A stretch of 64,000 nt of DNA. It comes from Oscillospiraceae bacterium (GTDB lineage: Bacteria; Bacillota; Clostridia; Oscillospirales; Ruminococcaceae). The DNA lies in NCBI GenBank assembly GCA_030539275.1, contig JAUNSK010000012.1, forward strand, positions 42,890 to 106,889. The letters are read 5' to 3'. This document shows, in pieces, positions 8,402 to 37,263 of this stretch. Every line of letters begins with the position of its first letter. Within the stretch, counting starts at the first letter, position 1. Under the pieces are notes generated by a model that saw only the letters and a list, made by a program, of their open reading frames with translations, made no database searches and had not been told where the DNA came from. Made by a program: the position numbers and the translations under genes.

Positions 8402-8436
8402 AAAAAATACCTCCTGTATTTATATTTATTGAACGC

Positions 8437-8526
8437 AAAAAAAGCTGACAGCTTCTGCGTAAACTGCAGAAGTCATCAGCTTGGATAAGCGGTTCAGGTT
8501 TCCCTTGGGAGTACTTCATTCCCTTT
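8437..8526 (-). promoter_or_regulatory. Structured leader with transcription attenuator (candidate riboswitch) of the antiporter gene
   Basis: Read on the minus strand: just after the predicted start of transcription comes a GGGA...TCCC hairpin (8507-8523), then a conserved-looking stretch AAGGGAAACCTGAACCGC, then a long hairpin with outer arms AAGCTGA / TCAGCTT (8442-8482) and inner arms CTTCTGC / GCAGAAG followed directly by seven T. That last element is an intrinsic terminator 36 bases upstream of the antiporter ATG. A compact fold plus terminator before an ion antiporter is the usual layout of a metal-ion riboswitch. A Na+- or Li+-type class is possible; the ligand is a guess. It does not match the c-di-AMP, fluoride or Mn2+ consensus I remember. 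Confidence 0.6.
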
Positions 8527-8533
8527 TCTACTT

Positions 8534-8563
8534 ATTTTAACACAAATATTTTATTAAAGTCAA
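8534..8563 (-). promoter_or_regulatory. Promoter of the antiporter transcript
   Basis: On the minus strand TTGACT (8563-8558), an 18-base spacer, then TAAAAT (8539-8534). It places the transcript start at about 8527, right at the structured leader. Confidence 0.65.
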
Positions 8564-8747
8564 TATTTACAGGGATAAATTTACGGCAGACTGTCTGAAA
8601 TACACAGTCTGTCATTATTCTATATGTATATTGAAATATATTGACTATGAACATAAGAGCATAGCTTGTTGTATAAGCTGACTGATCCTGGTTTGCGATG
8701 AATGCTGTAAAATAGCGGTAAAATCACATTTTATAGTAATTTATGGG

Positions 8748-8776
8748 TTGAAATAAAACAGCTTATATGATATAAT
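8748..8776 (+). promoter_or_regulatory. Promoter upstream of the 8943 gene
   Basis: TTGAAA (8748-8753), 17-base spacer, TATAAT (8771-8776). The leader before the gene is about 160 bases, AT-rich, with no obvious structured element. Confidence 0.6.
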
Positions 8777-8942
8777 CTAGATAATGTAATTATATGGTGA
8801 CATAGGAATAAGAACACACATATATAAGATGATATAGGAGATACTGCAGCGCAAAAACTGATATTACAGAGAAAAAACAGAGTGCTTATTAAAAGAACTA
8901 AAAGATTTCAGTATTTTTATAATGCAGCAGGGGGAAAACAGA

Positions 8943-9377
8943 ATGATCTTGGATATTAGGGCACCAATAATACCTTATGATGGATTTGGTGAAATAAAAT
9001 TATACAGTACTATAATGGAACTTGATGAAATTTTAACATTGTCTGTTTCTAAGAAAAAAATACTCAATGATAACTGGATCATCTATGATATACAAAACAG
9101 CATTGAGTTGTTTTTTCATAGGAAGAATGACAAATTATTCCGGATAACGACACTCGATAACTACAAGGGAAAAGTATTTGGAAGTATTGGAGTCGGAACT
9201 ACACTCAAAGAAATGCTCAGTATAGAATCCTCATTTGTTTATTATGAGTTTGAGGAACTGTGGCAGTCAGATAAAGGTGCATTTATTGAAATGGATCCTG
9301 TTACAAATAAGGTAAGATGGATCTCGGTATATATTCATGAACTGGAAGAAGATAATTTTGAACAATGTCTATGGTAG
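8943..9377 (+). CDS. Hypothetical cytoplasmic protein (144 aa)
   Basis: Start chosen at the ATG at 8943, eight bases after AGGGGG; an in-frame ATG at 8922 lies upstream of that site. The sequence begins MILDIRAPIIPYDGFGEIKL and is rich in beta-type segments (LFFHRKNDKLFRITTLDNY, GVGTTLKEMLSIESSFVYYE). I recall similar lone proteins from Firmicutes and Proteobacteria without a defined function; the size and acidic character would fit a toxin-immunity protein, but no toxin gene is next to it. It is followed 32 bases later by a lipoprotein gene in the same direction. Confidence 0.6.
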   Translation: MILDIRAPIIPYDGFGEIKLYSTIMELDEILTLSVSKKKILNDNWIIYDIQNSIELFFHRKNDKLFRITTLDNYKGKVFGSIGVGTTLKEMLSIESSFVYYEFEELWQSDKGAFIEMDPVTNKVRWISVYIHELEEDNFEQCLW

Positions 9378-9408
9378 ATCATATTCAGATGAATGGAGAA
9401 TTTTTTTT

Positions 9409-22139: not shown

Positions 22140-22165
22140 CAGATGAATCAGGGAGGGTTGATTTG

Positions 22166-25100
22166 ATGAGGTTTGTAAAATTAAGAAAATGTATATCAGC
22201 CGGACTTGCAGTGTGTATGGCAGCAGGGGCGGCAGTGAATGTGCCGGACAATAAGGCAGTTCACAACAGCGGTTATATTGCAGAAGCTGAAAGTGTACAT
22301 GATGATGACCTTGTTCTTCGATATGACAAAATGGCGGGAACGGTGAATACTGATAACGCATGGAATAATTCCGAATCATTTTATCGTGCACTTCCGCTTG
22401 GAAACGGTCGAATAGGTGCAATGGTTTATGGAAACTGTCCGGATGAGCTTATTGATCTCAACGAATGTACAGTCTGGAGTTCAGGCCCCGGCGACAACAA
22501 CAGGCAGGGTGCTGGTGACCATCTGAAAGAGGTACAGTCACTGCTTGAAAATTCAAAGTACTCAGAAGCCAACAAAATTATTTCACAGTATATGATAGGA
22601 TCAGGTCAGGCAAAGTATCAGAAGGTAGGTTCACTCAAGCTTTCGTTCGGACATGATTATGTTTCTGATTATTCGAGACAGCTTGATATGAATGACGCAG
22701 TTGCTTCATCATCATATACCTGCGGCGGGGTCAAGTATACAAGAGAGACTTTTGTAAGTCATCCTGATGATGTTATGGTAACACGAATAACCTGTGACAA
22801 GAAAGGTGCTCTGTCAATGACAGCCACATATGACGGGGTCCTCAATGGTACTGTAACCACAGAAAAAGGTGATACACTTGTTGCGAATGGTCACGCAGAC
22901 GGTGATCTCGGACTTTACGGAGCTGTATATTTTTCTACGCGCAGCAGATTTATTAATGAAAACGGTGTAGTAAGTACAGCTGGTGGAAAAGTTACTGTAT
23001 CCGGGGCAGATTCTCTGCTTATCCTTACGTCAGTACGTACAAATTTTATTGACTATAAAACATGCAACGGTGATGAAAAAGGTGATGCACTGGCAGATAT
23101 AAACAGGGTGTCAGAAATGTCTTATGATACACTGTACAAGAATCATTCAGATGATTATCAGGAACTGTTCAAACGTGTAGATATAGATCTCGGCGGAGAC
23201 AGTGAAGTAACAAATGCAAAAACGATAGAGACACGTATAGCTGAATTCAGTAAAACAAATGATCCGAAGATGGTAAAAACTTTGTTTCAGTTCGGAAGGT
23301 ATCTTATGATAAGTGCATCACGTGACGCACAGGCTATGAATCTTCAGGGTATCTGGAACAAGTACTCAGCCCCGGCATGGGGCAGCAAATCCACTACAAA
23401 CATAAATTATGAAATGAATTACTGGCCGGCATTCACAACAAATCTGGCTGAATGCTTTGAGCCGTTCGTAAAAAAAGCTGAGGATCTTCAGAAAACAGGA
23501 CACGAAACTGCTAAGGTCCATTACGGAATAAACGACGGCTGGGTCCTTCATCACAACACTGATATCTGGAACAGAAGCGGCCCTATTGATGGTTCATGGG
23601 GTCAGTGGCCTGTCGGCGGAGCATGGATCTCAAATATGCTGTATGACGCATACCGCTTCAATCAGGACGAGGATTATCTGCAAGAGGTTTATCCTGTTAT
23701 CAAAGGAAGCGCAGAGTTTCTTAATGAGCTTATGAAGAAGGAAACGATAGACGGTCAGGATTATATGGTAATAAGCCCGAGTGCATCTCCTGAACTGCCG
23801 CTTCCTGGTTATCCCTGGAATGATAATGTATACTGTTCTTATGGTGTCACAATGGATAACAGTATCTGTCGTGAGCTGTTCAAGGACACTACAGATGCAT
23901 CATCGATCCTTGGTCAGGACTCCGGTTTCAGAGGGGAGCTTGAGTCAAAGCTTTCACTTATTAAACCTGAAACCATCGGAAAATGGGGACAGCTTCAGGA
24001 ATGGGCATATGACTGGGATAATAAAAATGAAACACACCGTCATATTTCACATTTGTATTCTCTGTTCCCGGGAAATAATGTAACGCCATATGAAAATGAA
24101 ACTGTTGCAGACGCAGCCAGGGTATCTCTTAATGCAAGAGGAGATGCAGGCACAGGATGGTCAGAGGCATGGAAGCTTAACTGCTGGGCAAGGCTCTGTG
24201 ACGGTGAGCATGCTTATAATTTTATAAGACTTCTGATCACACCGGTTGGTGCGGACGGAAGACTGTACGATAATCTCTGGGATGCACATCCGCCGTTCCA
24301 GATCGACGGTAACTTTGGCTTTACATCCGGTGTAGCAGAAATGCTGCTTCAGAGTCAGAATGATATGATACAGCTGCTTCCGGCACTGCCGTCACAGTGG
24401 AAGACAGGCCATGCAAACGGATTGTGTGCAAGAGGAAATTTTGAAATATCAAAGATGAGCTGGTCTGACGGAAAACTGAGATCCGTTTGCGTTTTGTCTG
24501 GATCAGGCGGTGTCTGCTCTCTGAAGTACGGCAGTACACAGATAAGCTTTGAGACCAAAGCAGGAGAAGAGTATAGTCTTAATGGAAATCTGCAGTTCTG
24601 CGATGATACACAAACGCTTCAGAATCTTGCTTTGAATAAAAAAGTTACAGCATCAGGGGAGACAAAATCAGAAGAAGCAATATATGCTGTTGACGGTGAT
24701 AAAACTACAAAATGGTGCGATATGGGCGGACTTTCAGATGAGTGGATCCAGATAGACCTTGGTGAAGCAAAGGATATAGAGCGCTATGTCTTAAGTCTTG
24801 CCGGTACAGCTGAGGACATCTGCTATAACGCAAGGGATTTCAGGCTGCAGACGAGTATAAACGGTACTGACTGGACTGATGCAGATACAGTATACGGAAA
24901 TACCAAGAGTGTATACACCAGTAATATAGATAAAACTTACGCACAGTTCGTACGACTGTATTTTATAACGTCTACTCAGAATAATCAGGGCGGTGCAAGA
25001 GTCTATGACATTGAACTCTGGGGAACAGGAGAAGCTCCCGGAGCAAGATGTGCGTATGTAAAAACAGGAGCTGAATCTTTTGATTTTATGTATGGAGATA

Positions 25101-25636
25101 TACAGACAGAGACTTCTGATACTGGCGACGCGGATATAGGATATATAACGGACGGTTCATATGTTGTATACAGAAACATGGATTTTGAAACAGGGCCTGA
25201 AGGATTCATGGTAAGTGCTTCAAGTGATACAGAGGGAGGAACGATCGAGATAAGAGCCGGAGGAACTGACGGAAAGCTGCTTGGTACCTGCGGGATTGCA
25301 GGCACGCAGGGCTGGCAGAACTATGAGACGCTAAGCTGCGCTGCATCAGAATGTACAGGAAAGCAGGATGTCTATCTGATCTTCAAAGGTGATTCGGGAT
25401 ATCTGTTCAATATTGAATGGTTCAGCTTTTATGGAATCAAAGGAGATATTGACCGTACATCACGTATAGGCATAAGAGACTTTATATATATGAAAGATCA
25501 CATTCTGAGCGGCGGCAGTTCCCTGACAGGTCTTGCTCTGTCGAATGCAGATATAAACAGTGATGACAAGGTTGACATTACTGATGCAGTGATCCTTCAG
25601 GAGTTCCTTACCGGAATGCGTTCACAGCTTGAATAA
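22166..25636 (+). CDS. Secreted GH95 alpha-L-fucosidase with two carbohydrate-binding modules and a type I dockerin
   Basis: 1156 residues from the ATG at 22166 (GGGAGGG upstream). Signal peptide about 1-35. The GH95 catalytic part covers about 45-805: LPLGNGRIGAMVYG near the start, TNINYEMNYWP at about 411 with the paired catalytic-site Asn residues, Glu612 in QLQEWAYD, and Asp714 in FQIDGNFG, matching the residues known from Bifidobacterium AfcA. Residues about 815-955 are an F5/8 type C (CBM32-like) module (NLALNKKVTASG, WIQIDLGEAKDIERY); about 960-1090 a CBM6-like module (ITDGSYVVYRNMDF, FNIEWFSFYG). The last 64 residues are a dockerin: the second loop DINSDDKVDITD is canonical, the first DIDRTSRIGIRD lacks the Asp at position 5. 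It should release terminal fucose from glycans while docked on a scaffoldin or surface cohesin. Single gene between its own promoter and terminator. Confidence 0.9.
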   Translation: MRFVKLRKCISAGLAVCMAAGAAVNVPDNKAVHNSGYIAEAESVHDDDLVLRYDKMAGTVNTDNAWNNSESFYRALPLGNGRIGAMVYGNCPDELIDLNECTVWSSGPGDNNRQGAGDHLKEVQSLLENSKYSEANKIISQYMIGSGQAKYQKVGSLKLSFGHDYVSDYSRQLDMNDAVASSSYTCGGVKYTRETFVSHPDDVMVTRITCDKKGALSMTATYDGVLNGTVTTEKGDTLVANGHADGDLGLYGAVYFSTRSRFINENGVVSTAGGKVTVSGADSLLILTSVRTNFIDYKTCNGDEKGDALADINRVSEMSYDTLYKNHSDDYQELFKRVDIDLGGDSEVTNAKTIETRIAEFSKTNDPKMVKTLFQFGRYLMISASRDAQAMNLQGIWNKYSAPAWGSKSTTNINYEMNYWPAFTTNLAECFEPFVKKAEDLQKTGHETAKVHYGINDGWVLHHNTDIWNRSGPIDGSWGQWPVGGAWISNMLYDAYRFNQDEDYLQEVYPVIKGSAEFLNELMKKETIDGQDYMVISPSASPELPLPGYPWNDNVYCSYGVTMDNSICRELFKDTTDASSILGQDSGFRGELESKLSLIKPETIGKWGQLQEWAYDWDNKNETHRHISHLYSLFPGNNVTPYENETVADAARVSLNARGDAGTGWSEAWKLNCWARLCDGEHAYNFIRLLITPVGADGRLYDNLWDAHPPFQIDGNFGFTSGVAEMLLQSQNDMIQLLPALPSQWKTGHANGLCARGNFEISKMSWSDGKLRSVCVLSGSGGVCSLKYGSTQISFETKAGEEYSLNGNLQFCDDTQTLQNLALNKKVTASGETKSEEAIYAVDGDKTTKWCDMGGLSDEWIQIDLGEAKDIERYVLSLAGTAEDICYNARDFRLQTSINGTDWTDADTVYGNTKSVYTSNIDKTYAQFVRLYFITSTQNNQGGARVYDIELWGTGEAPGARCAYVKTGAESFDFMYGDIQTETSDTGDADIGYITDGSYVVYRNMDFETGPEGFMVSASSDTEGGTIEIRAGGTDGKLLGTCGIAGTQGWQNYETLSCAASECTGKQDVYLIFKGDSGYLFNIEWFSFYGIKGDIDRTSRIGIRDFIYMKDHILSGGSSLTGLALSNADINSDDKVDITDAVILQEFLTGMRSQLE

Positions 25637-26004: not shown

Positions 26005-26778
26005 ATGAAAGTGGTAATATTAGCAGGGGGGTTTGGGACTCGTATTATTGAGGAAAGTTATATTCGTCCAAAGCCAATGGTCGAGATAGGCGGAATGCCG
26101 ATATTATGGCATATAATGAAAGAATTTTTCTATTACGGATATGATGAGTTTATTATTTGTGCAGGATATAAGCAGCACATTATAAAAGAATTTTTCGCTG
26201 ATTATTATCTTCACAGAAGTGATATAACATTTGACTTCAGTGCGGACAACAACATAATAATACACAATAATGCTGCAGAACCCTGGAAGGTAACTATTAT
26301 AGATACTGGTCTTAATACAATGACCGGCGGCCGTGTCAAGCGTATCAGGGATTACATAGGAAATGAGACTTTTATGCTTACTTATGGTGACGGGGTAAGT
26401 GATGTCAACATATCTGAGCTCGTTGATTTTCATAAATCACACGGTAAGATGGCTACGATCACAGCTATAAGTGTAAATCAGCGTTTTGGTGTGCTTGATA
26501 TAGATGAAAACTCAGCAATAAAGTCAATGCGTGAAAAAAGCGACGTTGACGGCAGCGTGATAAACGGCGGATATATGGTTCTTGAACCTCAAATATTTGA
26601 TCTTATTGAAGGCGATGAAACAGTATTTGAAAAAGAACCTCTTGAATCTGCTGTCAAAATGGGACAGCTCATGGCATACAAACATAATGGATTCTGGCAG
26701 TGCATGGACACTCAGCGTGACATGCTGCAGCTTGAAGCTTTGTGGAATTCCGGAAGTGCTCCATGGAGGAAATGGTAA
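26005..26778 (+). CDS. rfbF: Glucose-1-phosphate cytidylyltransferase
   Basis: 257 residues, the usual length of the family. The nucleotidyltransferase signature is MKVVILAGGFGTRIIEES, followed by RPKPMVEIGGMPILWHIM, with GDGVSDVNI carrying the metal-binding Asp. It makes CDP-glucose from CTP and glucose-1-phosphate, the first committed step to CDP-3,6-dideoxyhexoses. The order rfbF-rfbG-rfbH is that of known O-antigen clusters. Its stop overlaps the start of rfbG (TAATG). AGAGGGG precedes the ATG. Confidence 0.92.
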   Translation: MKVVILAGGFGTRIIEESYIRPKPMVEIGGMPILWHIMKEFFYYGYDEFIICAGYKQHIIKEFFADYYLHRSDITFDFSADNNIIIHNNAAEPWKVTIIDTGLNTMTGGRVKRIRDYIGNETFMLTYGDGVSDVNISELVDFHKSHGKMATITAISVNQRFGVLDIDENSAIKSMREKSDVDGSVINGGYMVLEPQIFDLIEGDETVFEKEPLESAVKMGQLMAYKHNGFWQCMDTQRDMLQLEALWNSGSAPWRKW

Positions 26779-27830
26779 TGAATTTTGATTTTTACCGCGG
26801 GAAGACAGTGCTTGTAACCGGTCATAGCGGATTCAAGGGCGGCTGGATGTGCAAACTGCTGGCTATACATGGTGCAAAGGTTGTCGGATACTCACTTGAT
26901 CCTCCGACGACACCCAGTCTGTTTGATATTGCATCAATTGCTGTCAGTACAGAATCCATCACCGGAGATGTGCGTGATCTTGAAAAGCTTAAACAGACTA
27001 TGGACAGATACAAGCCTGAAATAGTAATTCACATGGCAGCTCAGCCTATCGTTCGTGAAAGTTATATAAATCCCGTTTATACCTATGAAACAAATGTAAT
27101 GGGAACAGTAAATGTTTGTGAAGCAGTACGTCTGTGTGACAGTGTAAGATCATTTATCAATGTTACTACTGACAAGGTCTATAAAAATAATGAATGGGTA
27201 TGGGGATACAGAGAAAATGATGCTCTCGACGGATATGATCCGTACTCTAATTCAAAAAGCTGTTCAGAATTAGTGACCGGATCTTATAAGAGATCATTTT
27301 TCAGCACCAGGGATATTTCTGTATCTACCTGTCGTGCAGGAAATGTCATTGGCGGAGGGGATTTTGCAGCAGACAGAATTATTCCTGACTGTTTCAGAGC
27401 TATGCAGGATACAGGCATAATCAAAGTCAGAAATCCTGATTCTGTTCGTCCGTTTCAGCATGTTCTGGAGCCTGTGAGTGCCTATCTTATGCTTGCACAG
27501 GCACAGTATGACAATAAATCAGCTGAAGGCTGCTATAACATAGGTCCGGATGACATTGACTGTATCTGTACAGGAAAACTCACAGATATTTTCTGCTCTT
27601 TCTGGTCAGACAATGCTTCCAGGGTAAGAAGCTTTGAAAACAACGCGCCTCATGAAGCGAACTTTCTGAAGCTTGACTGCTCAAAAATAAAAAAAGTCCT
27701 TGACTGGGAACCACGCTGGCATATTGAGCAGGCAGTTGAGAAGACAGTTGAATGGTACAAGTCATATATTGACGGATCTGATATAAATAAACTGATGGAA
27801 AAACAAATCAATGAATACATAAAGGGGTAG
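26778..27830 (+). CDS. rfbG: CDP-glucose 4,6-dehydratase
   Basis: 350 residues from the ATG at 26778; TGGAGGA lies upstream, inside the end of rfbF. Extended SDR: TGHSGFKGGWMCKLL (TGxxGxxG NAD loop), HMAAQPIVRESY, the catalytic Thr in NVTTDKVYKNNEW, and YDPYSNSKSCSEL with the Tyr-x-x-x-Lys pair. Converts CDP-glucose to CDP-4-keto-6-deoxyglucose. Forms one transcription and translation unit with rfbF and rfbH. Confidence 0.92.
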   Translation: MNFDFYRGKTVLVTGHSGFKGGWMCKLLAIHGAKVVGYSLDPPTTPSLFDIASIAVSTESITGDVRDLEKLKQTMDRYKPEIVIHMAAQPIVRESYINPVYTYETNVMGTVNVCEAVRLCDSVRSFINVTTDKVYKNNEWVWGYRENDALDGYDPYSNSKSCSELVTGSYKRSFFSTRDISVSTCRAGNVIGGGDFAADRIIPDCFRAMQDTGIIKVRNPDSVRPFQHVLEPVSAYLMLAQAQYDNKSAEGCYNIGPDDIDCICTGKLTDIFCSFWSDNASRVRSFENNAPHEANFLKLDCSKIKKVLDWEPRWHIEQAVEKTVEWYKSYIDGSDINKLMEKQINEYIKG

Positions 27831-27834
27831 ATAT

Positions 27835-29181
27835 ATGTTTGATAATATGACTGAACAGCAGGCAAGAGAGCAGATACTTGGTATGGTAAAGAGTTACTGC
27901 GATAAATATCATGCTCCGAAGGAATACACGAAAGGCAGCAGGATTCCGTACGCATCAAGAATATATGACTCTGATGAAATGACAAATCTCGTTGACAGCT
28001 CACTGGAATTCTGGCTTACATCCGGAAGATACACAGATGAGTTTGAAAAGAAATTATCTGAGTTTCTTGGTGTAAAATACTGTTCGCTGGTAAATTCAGG
28101 TTCTTCAGCAAATCTGGCAGCATTTATGGCTCTTACGTCTCCGCTTCTGGGAGAAAGGGCAGTAAAGCGTAATGACGAGATAATTACTGTTGCAGCCGGA
28201 TTTCCTACAACAGTAACACCAATGATCCAGTTTGGTGCTGTTCCGGTATTTGTTGATGTAACAATACCTCAGTACAACATAGATGTCAGTATGCTGGAAA
28301 AGGCATATACATCAAAAACCAAGGCCGTAATGCTTGCACATACACTTGGAAATCCGTTTGATATTGCAAAGGTCAGAGAATTCTGCACCAGTCATAATCT
28401 ATGGCTTGTAGAGGACAACTGTGATGCCCTTGGGTCAAAGTACATTATTGACGGCAAAGAGTACTTTACAGGTACTGTCGGAGATATAGGAACTTCAAGT
28501 TTTTATCCTCCTCATCATATGACAATGGGTGAGGGCGGTGCTGTATATACAAATGATCCGCTGCTTGCAAAGATAGTACGATCTTTTCGTGACTGGGGAC
28601 GTGACTGTGTCTGCAGGTCAGGCTGTGATAATATGTGCGGTCACAGGTTTGACAGGCAGTACGGTGATCTTCCTCTTGGATATGATCATAAGTATGTTTA
28701 TTCGCATTTCGGCTACAACCTGAAGGCCACTGATATGCAGGCTGCTATAGGATGTGCACAGCTTGGAAAGCTTCCTTTATTCGTGGAAAAAAGGAAAGAG
28801 AATTTCAGGCTCTTGAAAAATATTCTTATGAGTGAGCAGGACAGACTGATCCTTCCTGAAAGCTGCGAAAACTCTGATCCCAGCTGGTTTGGTTTTCTTC
28901 TCACATGCAGGGAAGGTGTCAGCCGAAATAAACTGGTAAGCTACATAGAAAGCAAAGGTATACAGACAAGAATGCTGTTTGCAGGCAATCTTACAAAACA
29001 TCCCTGCTTTGATGAAATGAGAGCGACAGGTACAGGCTACAGGATCGTGGGCAGCCTTGAAAATACAGACCGTATCATGAATGATTCATTCTGGGTAGGA
29101 GTTTATCCGGGAATGACACAGCAGATCATTGAGACTATCGGACAGGTCATAAAAGAGGCACTTAATGACTGTTGTGAATAA
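27835..29181 (+). CDS. rfbH: CDP-4-keto-6-deoxyglucose 3-dehydrase (E1)
   Basis: 448 residues. DegT/DnrJ/EryC1 fold but with His228 in SFYPPHHMTMGEGG at the place of the usual pyridoxamine-phosphate-binding Lys, the mark of the E1 dehydrase. The [2Fe-2S] ligands are visible as Cys196 (EDNCDALG) and Cys258, Cys260 and Cys268 in CVCRSGCDNMC. It removes the 3-hydroxyl group and needs a separate ferredoxin-type reductase (E3, AscD/RfbI), which is not encoded in this window. Four bases separate it from rfbG. Confidence 0.92.
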   Translation: MFDNMTEQQAREQILGMVKSYCDKYHAPKEYTKGSRIPYASRIYDSDEMTNLVDSSLEFWLTSGRYTDEFEKKLSEFLGVKYCSLVNSGSSANLAAFMALTSPLLGERAVKRNDEIITVAAGFPTTVTPMIQFGAVPVFVDVTIPQYNIDVSMLEKAYTSKTKAVMLAHTLGNPFDIAKVREFCTSHNLWLVEDNCDALGSKYIIDGKEYFTGTVGDIGTSSFYPPHHMTMGEGGAVYTNDPLLAKIVRSFRDWGRDCVCRSGCDNMCGHRFDRQYGDLPLGYDHKYVYSHFGYNLKATDMQAAIGCAQLGKLPLFVEKRKENFRLLKNILMSEQDRLILPESCENSDPSWFGFLLTCREGVSRNKLVSYIESKGIQTRMLFAGNLTKHPCFDEMRATGTGYRIVGSLENTDRIMNDSFWVGVYPGMTQQIIETIGQVIKEALNDCCE

Positions 29182-29641
29182 ACTATGGAATCTTTTTGAG
29201 CGGATATTAAAAAGTACGGTCAGTTTGCTGCTTAAAATTCCGGGGAAGGAACTATCAGATTCACAGTGGCAGAATTTTATGCAGTTCGTAAAGTTCTGCC
29301 TTGTCGGCGTATCAAACACAGCGATTTCCCTGGGAGTATATTATATATTTGTTGCTGTAAACAGCAGTCTTTATATGATCGGAAATGCAGCCGGTTTTGT
29401 TGTAAGTGTGCTCAACTCGTACATTCTCAACAGCAGATTTGTTTTCAAAAAACAGGATGAAAAGGGTAAGACACTGGTAAAAACCTTCGCAGCTTACGGG
29501 ACAAATCTGATCATCGGAACTCTGATGCTTTATCTGCTGGTTGATATCATCGGCATTTCAGAGTTTATTGCTCCTCTGATCAATCTGCTGATAACTGTTC
29601 CGCTCAACTATATACTCAATAAAAAATGGGTTATGAAATAG
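29165..29641 (+). CDS. GtrA-family membrane protein (probable lipid-linked sugar flippase)
   Basis: 158 residues, starting inside the end of rfbH (17-base overlap). The GtrA fold is clear: FVKFCLVGVSNTAISLGVYY as first helix, then NAAGFVVSVLNSYILNSRFVF and a last NYILNKKWVM, four helices in all. GtrA proteins act with a GtrB glycosyltransferase, encoded next, to move an undecaprenyl-phosphate-linked sugar across the membrane. Here the sugar is presumably made by this operon. Confidence 0.85.
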   Translation: MTVVNKLWNLFERILKSTVSLLLKIPGKELSDSQWQNFMQFVKFCLVGVSNTAISLGVYYIFVAVNSSLYMIGNAAGFVVSVLNSYILNSRFVFKKQDEKGKTLVKTFAAYGTNLIIGTLMLYLLVDIIGISEFIAPLINLLITVPLNYILNKKWVMK

Positions 29642-29672
29642 GACGTAAATTATTGAAAGGATAATAAATATA

Positions 29673-30620
29673 ATGAAGAAGATTTCCGTTCTTATCCCGT
29701 GTTATAATGAAGAAGAAAATGTTGAAGAGTTAAGCAGGGAGATAAAAGAGCAGTTTGAAAAATATCTTTCTGAGTATGATTATGAGATCATCTTTATAGA
29801 TAACTATTCAACTGATTCAACAAGGGTCAAGCTTATCAGGCTTTGCAGTGAAGATAAAAGGATCAAGGCCATATTCAACGCCAGAAATTTTGGTCAGTTC
29901 AATTCTCCTTACTACGGGATGCTTCAGACCACGGGGGACTGTACGATAACGATGTGTGCTGATTTTCAGGATCCGGTTGATCTGATCCCGCGACTTGTTC
30001 ATGAATGGGAACAGGGATATAAAATTGTCTGTTCTATAAAGACAAAAAGTAAGGAAAACCCACTGATCAGATCAATGAGAACATGTTACTACAAACTAAT
30101 TAAAAAAATGTCAAATATAGATCAGATAGAGCAATTTACAGGAACAGGACTTTATGACAAGGACTTTATTGATGTGCTCAGAGGACTTAATGATCCGACT
30201 CCTTTTCTTCGTGGTATAGTTGCTGAACTTGGATTCAGACGCAAGGATATTCCATATGAGCAGCAGAAACGACGCGCAGGAAAAACCAGCAACAACTGGT
30301 ATAAGCTTTACGATGCGGCAATGCTCAGCTTTACTTCCTATACAAAAGTCGGTATGAGGATATGTACTATCGCAGGCTTTTTTATGTCAATGATAAGTAT
30401 TCTCGTAGCGGTGATCTATCTTATTCTTAAACTGGTAAACTGGTATAGTTTTGCAATGGGTGATGCACCTATCCTTATAGGCATTTTTCTTCTGGGCGGA
30501 ATACAGTTGTTCTTTATAGGTTTTCTGGGTGAATATATGATGAGCATTAACCAGAGGGTTATGAACAGACCGCTGGTTATAGAGGAACGCAGGATTAATT
30601 TTGATGAAAATGAAAAATAA
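29673..30620 (+). CDS. GtrB-like polyprenyl-phosphate glycosyltransferase (GT2)
   Basis: 315 residues. GT-A domain at 1-225: VLIPCYNEEENVEEL, FIDNYSTDST, ARNFGQFNSPYYGML, and FQDPVDL in place of the usual DLQDP motif. Two C-terminal membrane helices (about 230-255 and 265-290). This is the DPM1/GtrB/ArnC class, which transfers a sugar from a nucleotide carrier to polyprenyl phosphate on the inner face. With GtrA it makes a lipid-linked donor. Preceded by GAAAGGA and 31 bases after GtrA. Confidence 0.87.
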   Translation: MKKISVLIPCYNEEENVEELSREIKEQFEKYLSEYDYEIIFIDNYSTDSTRVKLIRLCSEDKRIKAIFNARNFGQFNSPYYGMLQTTGDCTITMCADFQDPVDLIPRLVHEWEQGYKIVCSIKTKSKENPLIRSMRTCYYKLIKKMSNIDQIEQFTGTGLYDKDFIDVLRGLNDPTPFLRGIVAELGFRRKDIPYEQQKRRAGKTSNNWYKLYDAAMLSFTSYTKVGMRICTIAGFFMSMISILVAVIYLILKLVNWYSFAMGDAPILIGIFLLGGIQLFFIGFLGEYMMSINQRVMNRPLVIEERRINFDENEK

Positions 30621-31557
30621 TAAAACAGCAGTAATTACAGGTGCAACAGGAATGCTTGCCCTTGCTCTGATGAGAAGACTCATTTCAGAAGGGTATTACA
30701 TATATGCGGTGGCCAGACCTGATTCACCGCGCATCGCAGATATTCCTGAATCTGATATGATAACAACAGTAAAATGCGATATGCATAATTATAAAAACCT
30801 GAGCAGTATGATAAATTCATGCTGCGATATATTTTTCCACTTTGCATGGGAAGGTACTTCAGGAAATGCCAGAAATGATATGGCACTTCAGACACGAAAT
30901 ATCAGGGCGTCAGCAGAAGCAGTCAGTGCGGCTGCTGAGCTTGGATGTCAGGTATTTTTGGGAGCAGGATCTCAGGCTGAATACGGAAGAAAAGAATGTG
31001 CTGTGACACCGGACATGCCTGCATTTCCTGAGAACGGCTATGGAATGGCTAAGCTCTGTGCAGGACAGATGACACGGCTGATGTGTAAGGAGAAAGGAAT
31101 AAAGCACATATGGTGCCGTATTTTCAGTGTTTACGGACCATACGACGGAAATCAGACCATGATAATGTCGTCAGTCAGAAAGCTTATTGACGGCGGGACA
31201 CCGTGTTTCACTCCGGCGGAACAGATGTGGGATTATCTTTATTGTGATGATGCTGCCGCTGCTTTGTATCTTGCGGCTGTTAAAGGCAGGGATGGTCATG
31301 TCTACTGTGTCGGAAGCGGAGAAGTCCGGATGCTCAGGGATTACATAACAGAGTTAAGAGACAGGACAGATCCGGCTGCACAAATAGAAATCGGGGCCGT
31401 CCCTTACAGCGAAAATCAGGTTATGTATTTATGTGCTGATATAACTTCTCTTAAAGAAGATACAGGTTTTATACCGCAGTACAGTTTTTCGCGAGGCATA
31501 TCAGCTACAATAGAATGGTATAAACTCAGACTAAACGGCGGAGGTACAGATAAATGA
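30604..31557 (+). CDS. NAD-dependent epimerase/reductase of the dideoxyhexose pathway
   Basis: 317 residues from the ATG at 30604 (AGGA nine bases upstream), overlapping the GT2 gene by 17 bases. Extended SDR with TAVITGATGMLALALMRRL (TGxxGxLA), FLGAGSQAEYG with Ser, and YGMAKLCAGQM with Tyr-x-x-x-Lys. In this setting it may reduce the 4-keto group, as RfbJ/RfbS do for abequose and paratose or YerF does for yersiniose; which stereo-outcome applies cannot be told from sequence. Confidence 0.8.
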   Translation: MKMKNNKTAVITGATGMLALALMRRLISEGYYIYAVARPDSPRIADIPESDMITTVKCDMHNYKNLSSMINSCCDIFFHFAWEGTSGNARNDMALQTRNIRASAEAVSAAAELGCQVFLGAGSQAEYGRKECAVTPDMPAFPENGYGMAKLCAGQMTRLMCKEKGIKHIWCRIFSVYGPYDGNQTMIMSSVRKLIDGGTPCFTPAEQMWDYLYCDDAAAALYLAAVKGRDGHVYCVGSGEVRMLRDYITELRDRTDPAAQIEIGAVPYSENQVMYLCADITSLKEDTGFIPQYSFSRGISATIEWYKLRLNGGGTDK

Positions 31558-33164
31558 AAAAAATAATGCTTCTGGACTGTACATTGCGTGACGGAGGGTA
31601 TGTGAATGACTGGAATTTTGGTCACAATAATCTGGTAAGCATATTTGAACGGCTCGCAGAAGCTATGGTTGATATAATTGAAATAGGTTTTCTGGATGAA
31701 CGGAGAAATTTTGACCCCAACAGGAGTATTATGCCTGATACCGACTGTGTAAGTAAGATTTACGGACGTCTGGACAGGAAAAATTCAATGGTCGTAGGTA
31801 TGATCGACTACGGTACATGCAGTCTGAGTAATATAAGACCCTGTGAAGACAGCTATCTCGACGGCATCAGAGTAATATTTAAAAAGCACCTTAGAAAACC
31901 GGCTCTTGAATTTTGTGCAGAGCTGAAAAAACTCGGTTACAAGGTTTTTGCTCAGCTTGTAAGTGTTACAAGCTATACAGACGAGGAGATTCTTGATCTT
32001 ATTTCTATTGCAAATGAAGTTAAGCCATATGCTGTGTCTATGGTCGATACATACGGACTTATGCATCAGAATAATCTTAACCACTATTTCAGGCTGCTTG
32101 ATGAAAATCTATGCCCTCAGATAAATCTCGGATATCATGCACACAACAATTTTCAGATGGGTTATGCTAACTGTATTGCAATGCTTGCAAACAGTACCAA
32201 GAGAAATATTATAGTTGACGGATCGCTTTACGGAATGGGCAAAAGTGCGGGAAATGCGCCGGTTGAGCTTATCGCCATGCACATAAATCATTCCTATGGC
32301 CACAGGTATCATATAAGTCAGCTTCTTGAAGCAATTGATTCAAATATATCACAGTTTTACACAAGTGCTACCTGGGGATATAACATGTTTTATTATCTTG
32401 CTGCTTCAAATGACTGTCATCCTAATTATGTTTCCTATCTTACAGAAAAAAGGACGCTGTCAGTTAAAAGTGTAAATGAGCTGCTCGGACGGCTTGAAGG
32501 GGAGAAAAAACTGCTTTTTGATAAGAAATATATAGAGCTGCTGTATCTTCAGTATCTTGACAATGAAGTGAACGATACTCAGACAGTATCTGAACTAGAA
32601 GCAATTCTTTCAGGCAGGCCTTTGATGATAATCGGACCGGGAAGCTCGGTCAGGAGTGAAAAAGCTGCGGTAGACAAATATATTTCAGCTAACTCTCCTG
32701 TAATCATTTCAATAAATTATATACCTGATAATATAAGACCGGACTATGTTTTTGTCAGTAATTCAAAAAGATATGTACAGATGGCAACTGAACTTGCAAA
32801 TTCGCAGTTTACAATAATTGCAACATCAAATGTTACAAGCTATAAAGGAAGCTTCGATTATATAGTCAATGTCAGTCCGCTTCTGGATCTTGATGCTGAG
32901 ATAATCGATAATTCTCTTACAATGCTTCTGAGGCTTCTGATAAAAACAAATATCAAAGATGCAGCACTTGCAGGATTTGACGGTTATTCAAAAGTTGTAG
33001 AAAACTATGCTCATCCTGTAATGGAGTATTCTTTTGCAAAGGAAAAAGCTGATTATCTTAATAAATATACAACTGATTTTATAGGCAGCATCAAAGATAA
33101 AATGACATTAAGCTTTGTTACAAAATCAAGATATGCATGTGGAGGAAGCTATGAGCAGGTATAA
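31554..33164 (+). CDS. HMGL-type (4-hydroxy-2-oxovalerate aldolase-like) protein fused to a C-terminal Rossmann-like domain
   Basis: 536 residues. Residues 1-300 are a TIM-barrel aldolase of the HMG-CoA lyase/DmpG family: LLDCTLRDGGYVNDW with Arg12-Asp13, SMVDTYGLM, and the metal-binding pair in LGYHAHNNFQMG, then DGSLYGMGKSAGNAP. Residues about 350-500 form a second domain starting MIIGPGSSVRSEKAAV, with SINYIPDNIRPDYVFVSN, resembling the DUF115/MptE-like or MAF-type fold seen in glycan loci. Free-standing DmpG works with an acetaldehyde dehydrogenase; none is here. Instead a thiamine-diphosphate enzyme follows two genes later, so the aldolase may supply or use a 2-keto acid for sugar branching. 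Overlaps the SDR gene by four bases. Confidence 0.75.
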   Translation: MKKIMLLDCTLRDGGYVNDWNFGHNNLVSIFERLAEAMVDIIEIGFLDERRNFDPNRSIMPDTDCVSKIYGRLDRKNSMVVGMIDYGTCSLSNIRPCEDSYLDGIRVIFKKHLRKPALEFCAELKKLGYKVFAQLVSVTSYTDEEILDLISIANEVKPYAVSMVDTYGLMHQNNLNHYFRLLDENLCPQINLGYHAHNNFQMGYANCIAMLANSTKRNIIVDGSLYGMGKSAGNAPVELIAMHINHSYGHRYHISQLLEAIDSNISQFYTSATWGYNMFYYLAASNDCHPNYVSYLTEKRTLSVKSVNELLGRLEGEKKLLFDKKYIELLYLQYLDNEVNDTQTVSELEAILSGRPLMIIGPGSSVRSEKAAVDKYISANSPVIISINYIPDNIRPDYVFVSNSKRYVQMATELANSQFTIIATSNVTSYKGSFDYIVNVSPLLDLDAEIIDNSLTMLLRLLIKTNIKDAALAGFDGYSKVVENYAHPVMEYSFAKEKADYLNKYTTDFIGSIKDKMTLSFVTKSRYACGGSYEQV

Positions 33165-33804
33165 GCTGGCGGTATTTGATGTTGACGGGACTCTTCTTGA
33201 CACAACGCAGGGGGTTCTGGCATCGGTCAGATATACAATAGACCATTTCGGATTTAAAATGCCCGATAATGAGAGACTTAAAAAATTTATCGGTCCACCT
33301 ATACAGGACTCTTTTGCTGATCTGTATGACCTGAAAGGAGATATTCTTCAGGATATAGCTACAGTGTTCCGCAATCGTTATAAGAGTTCAGATCTGCTTA
33401 AGGCAAAACCGTATGACGGAATATATGATGTAATGGATAAGCTGCGTCAGGAAAATGTCATCTGTGCGATCGCAACTTATAAAAGAGAGGACTATGCAGT
33501 TGAGCTGCTTGATCATTTCGGATTTAACAGATATTCTGATATTATATACGGCGCAGATCACGAGAACAAACTGAAAAAAAGTGATATAATAAAAAAATGC
33601 CTGAAATCAGCGCAGATAGAAGACTATCGTGAGGCTGTGATGATCGGTGATACAATGAATGATGCTGTCGGAGCCGGCAAGCTCGGAATGGATTTTATAG
33701 CCGTAACTTACGGGTTCGGATTTAAAACCGCCAGTGAACTTGACAAAACCGGGAAAATAGGATATACGGACAGTACAGACGGGATACTAGCTCTTATCCT
33801 GTAA
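33151..33804 (+). CDS. HAD-superfamily phosphatase
   Basis: 217 residues from the ATG at 33151 (GGAGG upstream); a longer frame from 33115 is less likely. HAD motifs: FDVDGTLLDT with nucleophile Asp10 and acid Asp12, IATYKRED in motif II, Lys in NKLKKSDI, and IGDTMNDAVGAG in motif IV. C1-type cap; closest in style to phosphoglycolate phosphatase or sugar-phosphate phosphatases. Overlaps the aldolase gene by 14 bases and so is tightly coupled to it; it may dephosphorylate an aldol product or sugar intermediate. Confidence 0.8.
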   Translation: MSRYKLAVFDVDGTLLDTTQGVLASVRYTIDHFGFKMPDNERLKKFIGPPIQDSFADLYDLKGDILQDIATVFRNRYKSSDLLKAKPYDGIYDVMDKLRQENVICAIATYKREDYAVELLDHFGFNRYSDIIYGADHENKLKKSDIIKKCLKSAQIEDYREAVMIGDTMNDAVGAGKLGMDFIAVTYGFGFKTASELDKTGKIGYTDSTDGILALIL

Positions 33805-33821
33805 ATCAATCAACAAATCAG

Positions 33822-33862
33822 AAGGAGGTCATATTTCTTTAAGGAAATATGTATATCAAATG
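33822..33862 (+). promoter_or_regulatory. Ribosome binding site separated from its ATG by a perfect hairpin
   Basis: AAGGAGGT (33822-33829) is followed by CATATTTC-tttaag-GAAATATG (33830-33851), then eight bases, then the ATG at 33860. Taken linearly the spacing is 30 bases, too long; with the hairpin folded the Shine-Dalgarno lies eight bases from the ATG. Confidence 0.6.
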
Positions 33863-35686
33863 AAAATTAAAGTTTCGGATTATATAGCTGATTTTTTAGT
33901 CAACAAAGGTATTAAGGACTGCTTTATGGTTACAGGCGGCGGAGCCATGCATCTTGATGATTCACTCGGTCATAAAGAAGGACTGCATTGTATCTTTAAT
34001 CATCACGAACAGGGCAGCTCCATTGCTGCTGAAGCATATGCAAGACTTACAGGGAACATTGCCGCAGTATGCGTTACAAGCGGTCCCGGAGGAACAAATG
34101 CTATTACAGGTGTTATGGGCGGATGGCTTGATTCAATTCCTATGTTTGTTATTTCAGGTCAGGTCAAACGTGAGACAACAACATGGTCATGCTCCGGGCT
34201 TGGACTCAGGCAGCTTGGTGATCAGGAATTTGACATAGTTAATTCTGTTTCCAATATGACAAAATATGCTGTTATGGTCACAGAACCGGAAAAAATAGCA
34301 TACCATCTTGAAAAAGCATATTATCTTGCACTTGAGGGACGAAAAGGCCCTGTATGGCTGGATATCCCGCTTGACGTTCAGGGTGCTAAGGTGGAAGAGG
34401 ATGATCTTGTACATTTCACACCTGAGACTCAGATAAGCGTTACCCAGGATTTTACGGCTCACAATGCAGCGGAGATACTCGAGAAGATAAAGTCTGCAGA
34501 TTCTCCTCTTATCCTAGCCGGTACAGGTATAAGGCTTGGAGGTGCTCATCAGAAGTTCCTGGATCTTGTCAGAAAACTTGATATTCCTGTTGTTACAGCC
34601 TGGAATGCGAATGATACACTGGCTTATGATGATCCATGCTTTTGCGGAATGCCGGGTACAGTGGGAACACGTTCAGGCAATTTTGCAGTGCGCGGTTGTG
34701 ATGTGATACTAAGTCTCGGCTGCCGCCTTAACATCAGAATGATAGGTTATAATCATTTTGATTTTGCAAAAGACGCATATAAGATAATTGTGGACATAGA
34801 TGAGAGAGAACTCAGAAAGCCTACTATAAGACCTGATATGGCTGTAAATGCAGATGTAGATGATGTTATTTCAGAGCTTTTGAAATGCGAGTACAGTCGC
34901 CCTTTGAAGCATGACAAATGGCTCTCATGGTGCAGACAGCTAAAAGACAGATTTCCTGCAGCATTGCCTGAGTATGCACATGCAGACAAGCTCAATCCAT
35001 ATACATTTATTGATCTGCTCTCAGATAAACTTGACAATAGGGATAAGATCATTTGCGGTAACGGAAGTGCATGCGTAATTACATTTCAGGCACTGAAAAT
35101 CAAACAGGGTCAGCGTATGTTCACAAACTCAGGCTGTGCAGCAATGGGATACGGACTTCCCGCAGCTCTGGGTGCTGCTGCGGCAGACGGCAAAAACAGA
35201 ACAATATGTATTGACGGAGACGGTAGCATCATGATGAATATACAGGAACTTGCTGCGATTGCTTACAACAAGCTTGACATTAAGATCATACTTATCAACA
35301 ACAACGGATACCATTCTATCAGACAGACTCAGAAAAATCTGTTCAAGCCTCCTTTTGTCGGTATCGACAGTGACAGCGGAGTAAGTTTTCCTGACTTTGA
35401 TCTTCTTGCCAAGGCTTTTGGTCTTAAGTATTTTGTTATAGAAAATGAGAATATGGCAGAAAGTGTTCTGGATGATGCACTTAACTGTGACGGTGCATGC
35501 ATATGTGAGGTGATCGTAGATCCGAAACAGAACTTTGCTCCGAAATCATCATCAAAGGTCCTGCCGGACGGAAAGATCGTGTCTGCATCACTTGACGATA
35601 TGGCACCGTTCCTAGACAGGGATGAGTATAGCGCGATACATTTTGAGCCTGAGAGCGGACAGTCTGACAAGGAGAAATGCCGATGA
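33860..35686 (+). CDS. Thiamine-diphosphate enzyme, acetolactate synthase-like (YerE-type candidate)
   Basis: 608 residues. Catalytic Glu50 in FNHHEQGSSIAAEAYAR; the three domains of the AHAS/POX fold; ThDP-Mg site GDGSIMMNIQ ... NNNGY. The family spans acetolactate synthase, pyruvate oxidase, benzoylformate decarboxylase and YerE, the flavoprotein that adds a two-carbon unit from pyruvate to CDP-3,6-dideoxy-4-ketohexose in yersiniose synthesis. Its place in a CDP-dideoxyhexose operon makes a YerE-like role more likely than branched-chain amino acid synthesis; no ilvN small subunit is next to it. Translation seems to depend on the hairpin-shortened binding site just upstream. Confidence 0.8.
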   Translation: MKIKVSDYIADFLVNKGIKDCFMVTGGGAMHLDDSLGHKEGLHCIFNHHEQGSSIAAEAYARLTGNIAAVCVTSGPGGTNAITGVMGGWLDSIPMFVISGQVKRETTTWSCSGLGLRQLGDQEFDIVNSVSNMTKYAVMVTEPEKIAYHLEKAYYLALEGRKGPVWLDIPLDVQGAKVEEDDLVHFTPETQISVTQDFTAHNAAEILEKIKSADSPLILAGTGIRLGGAHQKFLDLVRKLDIPVVTAWNANDTLAYDDPCFCGMPGTVGTRSGNFAVRGCDVILSLGCRLNIRMIGYNHFDFAKDAYKIIVDIDERELRKPTIRPDMAVNADVDDVISELLKCEYSRPLKHDKWLSWCRQLKDRFPAALPEYAHADKLNPYTFIDLLSDKLDNRDKIICGNGSACVITFQALKIKQGQRMFTNSGCAAMGYGLPAALGAAAADGKNRTICIDGDGSIMMNIQELAAIAYNKLDIKIILINNNGYHSIRQTQKNLFKPPFVGIDSDSGVSFPDFDLLAKAFGLKYFVIENENMAESVLDDALNCDGACICEVIVDPKQNFAPKSSSKVLPDGKIVSASLDDMAPFLDRDEYSAIHFEPESGQSDKEKCR

Positions 35687-37263
35687 AAATAACATATAAT
35701 AAACTGCGGCGTGCAGCAGTTCTTTACTGTGTTTTTCCGGTAGTAATTTTTTTGTTCGGATGGATTTCTACCGTTTTTGCATGTTTGTTCACTATGTTTA
35801 TAGCAGGCGGATTATTTATTATGGTCAGAAATTCTGATGAAGATGATGGTAATGTTCCTTATATGCAGATATCAAAAAAAGCTGTGATCTTCATTGCTGT
35901 CGCGGCAGTAATATGGTGCATACTTGCGGGACAGGGCGGTTTTATCTCCCAGACAAAGGACCACGAAATTAGAAATGCAATTTTTCATGATCTTATTAAA
36001 ATGGACTGGCCGGTAATCTATGATCAGGACCAGATGCTTTCTTACTACATAGCACACTGGATGTTTCCCGCTCTCGCAGGAAAAGCAGTACTTGCTCTTT
36101 CGGGAAGTGTTTTCTATGGATATCTTGCAGGAAATATTGCTCTTTTGATATGGAGTAGTATAGGTTGTTTTATTGCATTGATGCTGACGGCAATGGTTAC
36201 AGCATCAAAAGATAAATCACATCCTGTTGCTGCCGCTGTTATGTTTATAATGTTCAGCGGACTGGATGTAGTAGGAAAATACCTGACAGGATTCAAAAGA
36301 GTAGATCATATCGAATGGTGGGCAAATTACTTTCAGTTCAGTTCGATCTCAACCTGCCTTTTCTGGGTCTATAATCAGGCAATAGTGAGCTGGATCATAA
36401 CGCTTTGCCTGATCAATGAGAAAAAAATAAAAAACTTTGCATTGCTGGGAATACTCGTTCTTCCGTTCGGGCCTTTTCCTTTTATCGGAATTGTCATGAT
36501 GTGTATTATTAAAGCATGTGAAATAACAATAAAACGCATCCGCAGTAAAATGAAGACGGCAGAAATTTTGCGTGACATATTCTCAGTTTCAAATATTGCA
36601 ATGCTTATAGGAACAGGAATTCCTTATGCTGCATATTACATGTCAAATGCGATCGTATCAAACGACGCAGTATATGATGAAAGTAAGGTAAATGTCGGCC
36701 TTCGTTTCCTGGACTCATTTGTTGATATTATTTACAGCAGGGATCTGAACAGAATTGTTCTTTTCTTTGCTGTGTATGTATCATTTATCTTTCTGGAATC
36801 CGGAATTTTTATATTGCTGATAGCAGCTTACCGTAAGAAAAAAATATTTGATAATATGACATTCATAATTTTATCCGAGCTTCTTTTATTCATTCCTCTT
36901 ATGCAGATGGGATCTCAGTTTGACTTCGGTATGAGAGTATCAATACCAATGATCATTTATATCTATGTAGAGTTTACAAAAATGGTAACTCAGATGCTGC
37001 CGTCAAAAGGTGAATTCAGGACTTTTGACAGCCTTATAAAAGCAAAACCTTTGCTGATAATCTCACTTTTTGTTTTTTTACTGGGCACAGTTACACCACT
37101 TACTGAAGCAGCACGTGGTGTTTTTGATACGATTTCATTAGGTGTTCATCCAAAAACAGATTATTTTTTCAATGAGTCGTTAAACGATGTTTATGAAAAA
37201 AATAATTTTGCATCGTCAAACTATACAGAGTCTGCTTTTTATAAGTATCTTTGCAGAAAGTGA
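35683..37263 (+). CDS. Polytopic membrane protein of the glycan operon (GT-C-like or polymerase candidate)
   Basis: 526 residues from the ATG at 35683 (AAGGAG eight bases upstream; ATGA overlap with the thiamine enzyme). About 11-13 membrane helices. A longer outside loop near residues 85-115 contains TKDHEIRNAIFHDLIKMDWP and DQDQMLSYYIAHWMFP with acidic residues after the second helix, the place where GT-C glycosyltransferases keep their catalytic Asp/Glu. With GtrA and GtrB homologues upstream it would fit the third, acceptor-specific part of a GtrABC-like system, or a Wzy-type polymerase. No direct family match. Confidence 0.6.
   Translation: MKITYNKLRRAAVLYCVFPVVIFLFGWISTVFACLFTMFIAGGLFIMVRNSDEDDGNVPYMQISKKAVIFIAVAAVIWCILAGQGGFISQTKDHEIRNAIFHDLIKMDWPVIYDQDQMLSYYIAHWMFPALAGKAVLALSGSVFYGYLAGNIALLIWSSIGCFIALMLTAMVTASKDKSHPVAAAVMFIMFSGLDVVGKYLTGFKRVDHIEWWANYFQFSSISTCLFWVYNQAIVSWIITLCLINEKKIKNFALLGILVLPFGPFPFIGIVMMCIIKACEITIKRIRSKMKTAEILRDIFSVSNIAMLIGTGIPYAAYYMSNAIVSNDAVYDESKVNVGLRFLDSFVDIIYSRDLNRIVLFFAVYVSFIFLESGIFILLIAAYRKKKIFDNMTFIILSELLLFIPLMQMGSQFDFGMRVSIPMIIYIYVEFTKMVTQMLPSKGEFRTFDSLIKAKPLLIISLFVFLLGTVTPLTEAARGVFDTISLGVHPKTDYFFNESLNDVYEKNNFASSNYTESAFYKYLCRK

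Follow-up and report, generated by a model that had tools for sequence, protein, structure and literature searches.

We examined a stretch of 64,000 nucleotides, hereafter the window, from an Oscillospiraceae bacterium (assembly GCA_030539275.1, contig JAUNSK010000012.1, positions 42,890 to 106,889), whose genome of 3.68 Mb is held in 49 contigs, and in particular the ten genes found at 26005-37263 of this window. All ten open reading frames (ORFs) are on the + strand, neighbouring frames either overlap or are separated by gaps of at most 55 bases, and the genes form one operon (Table 1). We will argue that this operon probably makes and exports a 3,6-dideoxyhexose branched at C4, with a probable long branch.

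Table 1. The ten genes of the operon, with the matches on which their names are based (SDR, short-chain dehydrogenase/reductase; TPP, thiamine diphosphate).
Product	Position	Strand	Evidence
RfbF, glucose-1-phosphate cytidylyltransferase	26005..26778	+	TIGR02623, 384 bits (NCBIfam cut-off 300)
RfbG, CDP-glucose 4,6-dehydratase	26778..27830	+	ATG at 26778; TIGR02622, 451 bits (cut-off 278)
RfbH, E1-type 3-dehydrase giving CDP-4-keto-3,6-dideoxyglucose	27835..29181	+	PRK15407, 711 bits (cut-off 423)
GtrA-like membrane protein	29165..29641	+	PF04138, E 1.5e-26
Family 2 glycosyltransferase (GT2), PgfS/ArnC type	29673..30620	+	PF00535, E 2.3e-24; NF047588 (PgfS), 174 bits, under the cut-off of 500
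Extended SDR	30604..31557	+	PF01370, E 1.4e-32; family in 43 loci including the window
Two-domain protein: DmpG-like class II aldolase (residues ~1-320) and C-terminal domain (~345-536)	31554..33164	+	PF00682, E 3.3e-22
HAD phosphatase (HAD_2)	33151..33804	+	PF13419, E 1.7e-34
YerE-like thiamine diphosphate enzyme	33860..35686	+	Three TPP domains; top PDB relative JanthE (8rph), 394 bits
Polytopic membrane protein	35677..37263	+	10 hydropathy peaks, two pairs overlapping

The names of RfbF, RfbG and RfbH had already been given in a preliminary description of this DNA, and they are borne out by the curated NCBIfam cut-offs, all of which are passed. E1 dehydrases are marked by a His that replaces a Lys and by a cluster of Cys; in the RfbH of the window, an HHMTMGEGG stretch occurs together with Cys residues at positions 196, 258, 260, 264 and 268. 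The same description had placed a thiamine enzyme, an SDR, an HMGL/DmpG-type aldolase and a HAD phosphatase in the same operon, with which the domain matches and the layout of the genes agree. This gene set was correct, and it left unmentioned the C-terminal domain of the aldolase (~190 residues), the GtrA-like protein, the PgfS-like glycosyltransferase and the last membrane protein. The GtrA-like protein is a probable flippase partner, the glycosyltransferase probably makes a polyprenyl-phosphate sugar, and the SDR is a candidate branch-ketone reductase, or an epimerase. The membrane protein at the end of the operon has no family in Pfam, NCBIfam or PHROGs and is possibly a GT-C type glycosyltransferase.

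The nature of the thiamine enzyme is the first point to settle, and it can be approached through its closest relatives of solved structure. In the PDB ranking, 8rph comes far ahead of the Escherichia coli acetolactate synthase I (256 bits) and of 5ahk (253 bits); 8rph is JanthE, a YerE-like enzyme of Janthinobacterium (PMC12188165). The genome holds a second TPP protein elsewhere, IlvB, which shows the opposite pattern, with 463 bits for acetolactate synthase I and 159 for JanthE, and which is adjoined by IlvN, as judged by eye. No IlvN is present among the ten operon genes beside the thiamine enzyme of the window. The top-scoring NCBIfam names for this enzyme are those of acetolactate synthases; the listed matches all fall under their cut-offs (342 bits against 538 for TIGR00118). 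In a 42-row tree, for which 30 of the 80 loci described below were sampled and which had neither YerE nor ErwE among its rows, the window enzyme groups with JanthE (support 95/86), and six acetolactate synthases stand apart on one side (100/99). Its closest relatives by tree path are mostly from Bacillota. HHEQ, with Glu50, and GDGS at 453-456 are invariant in a four-row alignment; we take Glu50 to be the catalytic Glu and GDG to be the thiamine-binding motif. Because of the scores with JanthE and with acetolactate synthase, of the reverse pattern of IlvB and of the 42-row tree, we read the enzyme, as far as sequence can tell, as YerE-like by descent, with JanthE and not YerE or ErwE as the reference. 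This is what the preliminary description had supposed, and the firm grouping with acetolactate synthases that it had named as the opposite outcome is not what the tree gives. A biosynthetic acetolactate synthase was rejected as a name for the enzyme on the TIGR00118 score, the IlvB-IlvN pair found elsewhere, the score reversal of IlvB and the tree. A search of plasmids with the thiamine enzyme gave no match at 1e-80; at 1e-50 it returned 19 records, of which 15 carry an acetolactate synthase annotation at that place and 4 have none.

The second enzyme of importance is the aldolase. Its residues 1-320 align with 3dxi, with DmpG (1nvm) and with relatives of these, and all 51 aligned sequences keep R12, D13, H195, H197 and the GMG..GN loop unchanged, at positions matched to 1nvm. 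We take R12, D13, H195 and H197 to represent the metal ligands and the Arg-Asp-Gly loop, and the DmpG-like loop is presumed to mark an aldolase, not a CoA-using synthase. The protein is distant from the 4-hydroxy-2-oxovalerate aldolases, since it scores 82 bits with TIGR03217, far under the cut-off of 286. Across 398 genomes of the phylum, the aldolase profile gave 3 matches, including the genome of the window. The two domains share one open frame in 66 loci. The C-terminal domain of the window copy has no Pfam match, and the other members (51 scanned) gave scattered weak matches with no agreement between them. Against the PDB, three matches were obtained up to E 10, namely a GT42 sialyltransferase (0.087), a SteA-like protein (0.094) and MptE (1.7). 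Profile alignment with hhalign against MptE-like regions gave 41% over 133 columns when 22 of the 23 regions were used (the remaining one is interrupted by a stop) and 46% over 166 columns for a set of 11 regions; the controls (HAD, SDR, RfbH, RfbG, GT2 and the thiamine enzyme) gave 0.2 to 2.8%. From this weak signal, a nucleotide-binding fold of the MptE/GT42 type is no more than plausible for the C-terminal domain. The GT42 family gave no match across 299 genomes of the phylum, a result that carries no information because no control responded in that search.

To see which of these genes travel together, contigs were scanned with a three-row alignment of the thiamine enzyme, which found at least 549 relatives, and the best 80 of these were kept. 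These 80 loci were thus picked by the thiamine enzyme alone, without use of the aldolase; many of them end at contig ends, and the presence of each gene was scored by tblastn with fixed score thresholds. The N-terminal domain of the aldolase was found in 70 of the 80 loci and its C-terminal domain in 69, followed by HAD (55, some of them weak), GT2 (47), SDR (46), RfbH (41), RfbG (35), RfbF (32), GtrA (18) and the membrane protein (6). Of the 51 loci flanked by 6 kb or more on each side, 47 have the aldolase, 4 do not, and 35 have RfbH. When the 1168 ORFs of the window and of the 80 loci were clustered, nine families were present in at least 18 loci, the window included (79, 69, 46, 43, 41, 36, 35, 28 and 18 loci), all of which correspond to window genes, while the next family reaches only 7 loci. 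No further reductase or E3 family is among these recurrent families. Only the membrane protein, of the ten, is not recurrent, its family being reduced to 2 loci after clustering. Nine of the ten families are therefore together not by chance. The records that carry the cassette are labelled Lachnospiraceae, Oscillospiraceae, Treponema, Bacteroides, Fibrobacter and others; many are metagenome-assembled genomes (MAGs), for which single labels may be wrong. Cultured carriers include Sporofaciens musculi WCA-9-b2 (L055) and Lachnospiraceae AC2029 (L035).

The pairing of aldolase and thiamine enzyme also follows descent. On a 79-row tree of the thiamine enzyme (one of the 80 loci has no complete frame, and four loci with a short flank were omitted), the presence of the aldolase, labelled for 70 loci and the window, needs 3 changes, against a mean of 7.8 in shuffled labels, none of 500 shufflings being as low. 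The main clade has the aldolase in 67 of its 68 rows, the exception being L091 at its base; the aldolase-free rows L007, L008, L085, L086, L093 and L094 fall outside it, as do the aldolase-bearing L076, L087, L088 and L089. The preliminary description had proposed that the aldolase feeds the thiamine enzyme, and the near-constant pairing (70/80), its three changes on the tree and the donor preference of ErwE, a relative discussed below, all fit this idea. Co-divergence of the families was abandoned as an argument: the Spearman coefficients run from 0.12 to 0.50 over all pairs, and those of the thiamine enzyme with the aldolase (0.48) and with HAD (0.49) are not distinct enough from the others.

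A few loci present one or the other of the two enzymes in other company. In L007 (10109-13733), a YerE-like enzyme (~49% identical) lies beside genes that look by eye like those of a 2-keto-3-deoxy-6-phosphogluconate aldolase and a 2-keto-3-deoxygluconate kinase, and inspection by eye showed no sugar-nucleotide gene in the vicinity; in L009 (8666-14060) a more distant relative (37%) lies, again by eye, beside a transketolase pair, an SDR and a NeuB-like gene. A Desulfobaculum plasmid (L098, 3992-10014) carries the same aldolase domain along with RfbH and a transketolase pair, the latter being another kind of thiamine enzyme in the place of the YerE-like one; the RfbF and RfbG matches are each split there in two overlapping pieces. 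On a Leisingera plasmid (L099, 12001-15003), the neighbours of a two-domain aldolase of equal length are a HAD and a CMP-Kdo-synthetase-like gene, and the annotation shows no thiamine enzyme in the vicinity. The company in L099 suggests that ulosonic acids are also among the products of the aldolase family, and both plasmids would fit an aldolase that makes 4-hydroxy-2-oxo acids for different users.

The HAD phosphatase is a more variable partner. A HAD of the window family is found in 46 clustered loci, including the window, and in a Butyrivibrio MAG (L024, 7693-9990) the aldolase (7723-9303) and the HAD (9322-9963) are one open frame of ~760 residues. In three spirochaete loci a different HAD takes the place of the window type. 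Since the HAD is recurrent, fused in L024 and replaced or absent elsewhere, a phosphorylated aldehyde is plausible as the substrate, although it would not be needed everywhere. The HAD was also considered as a key to the type of donor, and this was dropped, as its presence needs about ten changes on the aldolase tree and no alignment column separates the loci with it from those without.

The connection to the CDP-dideoxy sugar pathway is visible in most loci. Among the 47 well-flanked loci with the aldolase, 23 have all of RfbF, RfbG and RfbH, 10 have some of them and 14 have none nearby. In 12 of the genomes of these 14 loci RfbH is found elsewhere, and 2 have no RfbH match. As a control, RfbH was sought in the family of genome G679 (the genome of L035, Lachnospiraceae AC2029, and itself one of the 14), in which it was found in 50 of 120 genomes; the comparison of 12/14 with 50/120 gives a Fisher p of 0.0016, with two shared genomes left out and kinship uncorrected. 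In the family of the window itself, RfbH is present in 13 of 100 genomes, including its own, and 7 of the other 12 have a YerE-like enzyme at 1e-100 or below, five of them on the contig of RfbH. Across the order, such an enzyme is found at 1e-100 in 4 of 147 genomes, again including its own; one genome, G067, is in both counts. Three plasmid rfbFGH clusters served as controls: in their gene table, which is incomplete, neither a thiamine enzyme nor an aldolase is annotated close to them. RfbH is usually thought of as an enzyme of Gram-negative O-antigens. The preliminary description had likewise called the pathway mainly Gram-negative, which is weak in genomic terms when RfbH is present in so many genomes of the G679 family.

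We can now consider what the operon may do as a whole. RfbF, RfbG and RfbH would turn glucose-1-phosphate into CDP-4-keto-3,6-dideoxyglucose. From this point, the gene identities, their conserved co-occurrence and the YerE-like rather than acetolactate-synthase descent come from sequence comparison, and we infer each reaction from the aldolase onward, as well as the donor and the final polymer. The DmpG-like aldolase would add a pyruvate enolate to an aldehyde to give a 4-hydroxy-2-oxo acid, and the HAD would take the phosphate off where the aldehyde is phosphorylated. The YerE-like enzyme would then decarboxylate the 2-oxo acid and transfer the hydroxyacyl group, probably of at least four carbons, to the C4 ketone, so that the product would be a tertiary alcohol with a long branch, whose new ketone the SDR probably reduces. 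Loading of the sugar onto polyprenyl phosphate and its flipping would fall to the PgfS-like glycosyltransferase and GtrA, and the last step, to a wall glycan or to a protein, may be the task of the membrane protein. More tentatively, and with distinctly less confidence than in the operon's general function, we suggest that the two-domain aldolase might give a polyhydroxylated 2-oxo acid, leading to an undescribed long-branched 3,6-dideoxyhexose in many anaerobic gut and rumen bacteria, and that the fused MptE/GT42-like domain might bind the CDP sugar and thereby join acceptor and donor.

Several observations weigh against this interpretation. As to the thiamine enzyme, JanthE is a long branch, as are L009 and 5ahk, and long branches meet in a 42-row tree that has no YerE or ErwE; moreover, 5ahk, which may be PpYerE, is placed on the acetolactate-synthase side. 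In the aldolase, Tyr16 replaces the His of DmpG beside the loop, which we take to be catalytic. The thiamine enzyme is without the aldolase in five loci with adequate flanks, and also in L007 and L008, and the aldolase is without the thiamine enzyme in L099; L096 and L097, which are short loci, likewise show none. No HAD is near the aldolase in 16 of the 64 scored loci, and the number of changes of its presence on the aldolase tree (~10) is to be compared with a shuffled mean of 14.4, 1 of 500 shufflings being as low; the HAD is therefore not essential to the cassette. The presence of RfbH elsewhere in the genome is only moderately informative, because many genomes of the control family have it and the 14 genomes are not all of that family. 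Finally, the search for an E3 reductase that the preliminary description had proposed found no AscD-like enzyme in the genome, the sole FAD_binding_6 match (E 7.5e-4, just over the cut-off) lying in a frame of 276 residues.

Three other explanations have to be set against a long-branched sugar. The one that survives best is that the product is of the yersiniose type, so that only a two-carbon acetyl group from pyruvate would be transferred, and the aldolase and HAD would serve a different product, such as an ulosonic acid in another part of the polymer. Yersiniose is indeed the first product known for YerE-type chemistry (PMC12247030), and the Leisingera aldolase, of the same length and layout, keeps the company one would then expect; on the other hand, the aldolase accompanies the thiamine enzyme in most loci, the pairing tracks the thiamine-enzyme tree, and RfbF is the only cytidylyltransferase among the nine recurrent families, so that we hold this explanation to be unlikely. 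Less likely again is that the substrate of the aldolase and the thiamine enzyme is a different 4-keto sugar nucleotide or a free metabolite, RfbFGH being the mere company of a polysaccharide locus. The 14 of 51 well-flanked loci that have both enzymes and no RfbF, RfbG or RfbH nearby, with the two genomes lacking an RfbH match, speak for it, as does L007; the single operon of the window and the occurrence of RfbH elsewhere in the other twelve genomes, above the control rate, speak against it. Last, a spare acetolactate synthase in an operon for an ordinary unbranched 3,6-dideoxyhexose would account for the top NCBIfam names, but is highly improbable given the scores under the cut-offs, the IlvB-IlvN pair elsewhere with no IlvN here, the 42-row tree and the three plasmid rfbFGH clusters, in whose incomplete gene table neither enzyme is annotated nearby. 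A branched sugar with a probable long branch thus stays the preferred product.

Two features of the surrounding DNA deserve mention. A GH95 glycoside hydrolase with CBM6 and F5/8 domains, and by eye a dockerin-like C-terminus, lies just upstream of the operon (22163-25636). Farther away, at 1422-4906, two subtilases stand side by side, the first of which has a CspB prodomain; such a prodomain is known from spore-germination proteases. This subtilase and the mostly Bacillota relatives of the thiamine enzyme both point to a likely clostridial host.

Branched dideoxy sugars are known chemically from lipopolysaccharides (LPS) and from mycobacterial lipooligosaccharides (PMC12247030, PMC5706390). 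The cassette is spread over many record labels, and therefore the surfaces of gut bacteria may carry such sugars unrecognised. The source of the longer donor acids is not stated in the parts of the literature covered, and the aldolase of the cassette is a candidate enzyme for this step. In addition, the many thiamine enzymes that are paired with their own aldolases are candidates for making tertiary alcohols.

The proposed pathway can finally be compared with the systems already described. The yersiniose pathway, with YerE of Yersinia pseudotuberculosis, is likened to it by its described chemistry and not by sequence: YerE branches the same acceptor, CDP-4-keto-3,6-dideoxyglucose, at C4, but the branch is one of two carbons from pyruvate and the donor is limited, in the text covered, to C3 transfer (PMC12247030); the ketoreduction that follows was uncharacterised at the time of PMC4753412. 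JanthE is the closest solved relative of the window enzyme, with a similarity too low for an orthologue and with a CDG thiamine motif where the window enzyme has GDG; it accepts ketones and takes longer 2-oxo acids, among them 4-hydroxy-2-oxovalerate with benzaldehyde (PMC12188165). The erwiniose pathway, compared by described chemistry and not by gene cluster, is another such system: ErwE of Pectobacterium atrosepticum, a YerE-like enzyme, acts with the same acceptor and prefers 4-hydroxy-2-oxo acids, with no use of pyruvate in the account covered (PMC12247030). Erwiniose, unlike the sugar proposed here, belongs to a Gram-negative LPS. Caryophyllose of Mycobacterium marinum, a 3,6-dideoxy-4-C-(tetrahydroxyhexyl)-hexopyranose, is likewise a 3,6-dideoxyhexose with a long branch at C4, in this case of six carbons (PMC5706390), and its YerE-like enzyme MMAR_2332 has an ErwE-like donor preference, its acceptance of ketones being given as still unproven (PMC12247030); it differs in being part of lipooligosaccharides, and the word 'aldolase' is not in the main text of the literature queried for this comparison. 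More than 200 YerE-like enzymes have also been found in silico (PMC12247030). The preliminary description held that no pathway with this full set had been described, which is too strong, because erwiniose and caryophyllose are precedents for the chemistry; its branching idea is correct in kind. No paper in the literature searched treats an aldolase and a YerE-like enzyme together, and a description outside that literature may exist. Compared with yersiniose, erwiniose and caryophyllose, what looks new is the two-domain aldolase, the HAD that accompanies it, the export genes and the breadth of the cassette in anaerobes.

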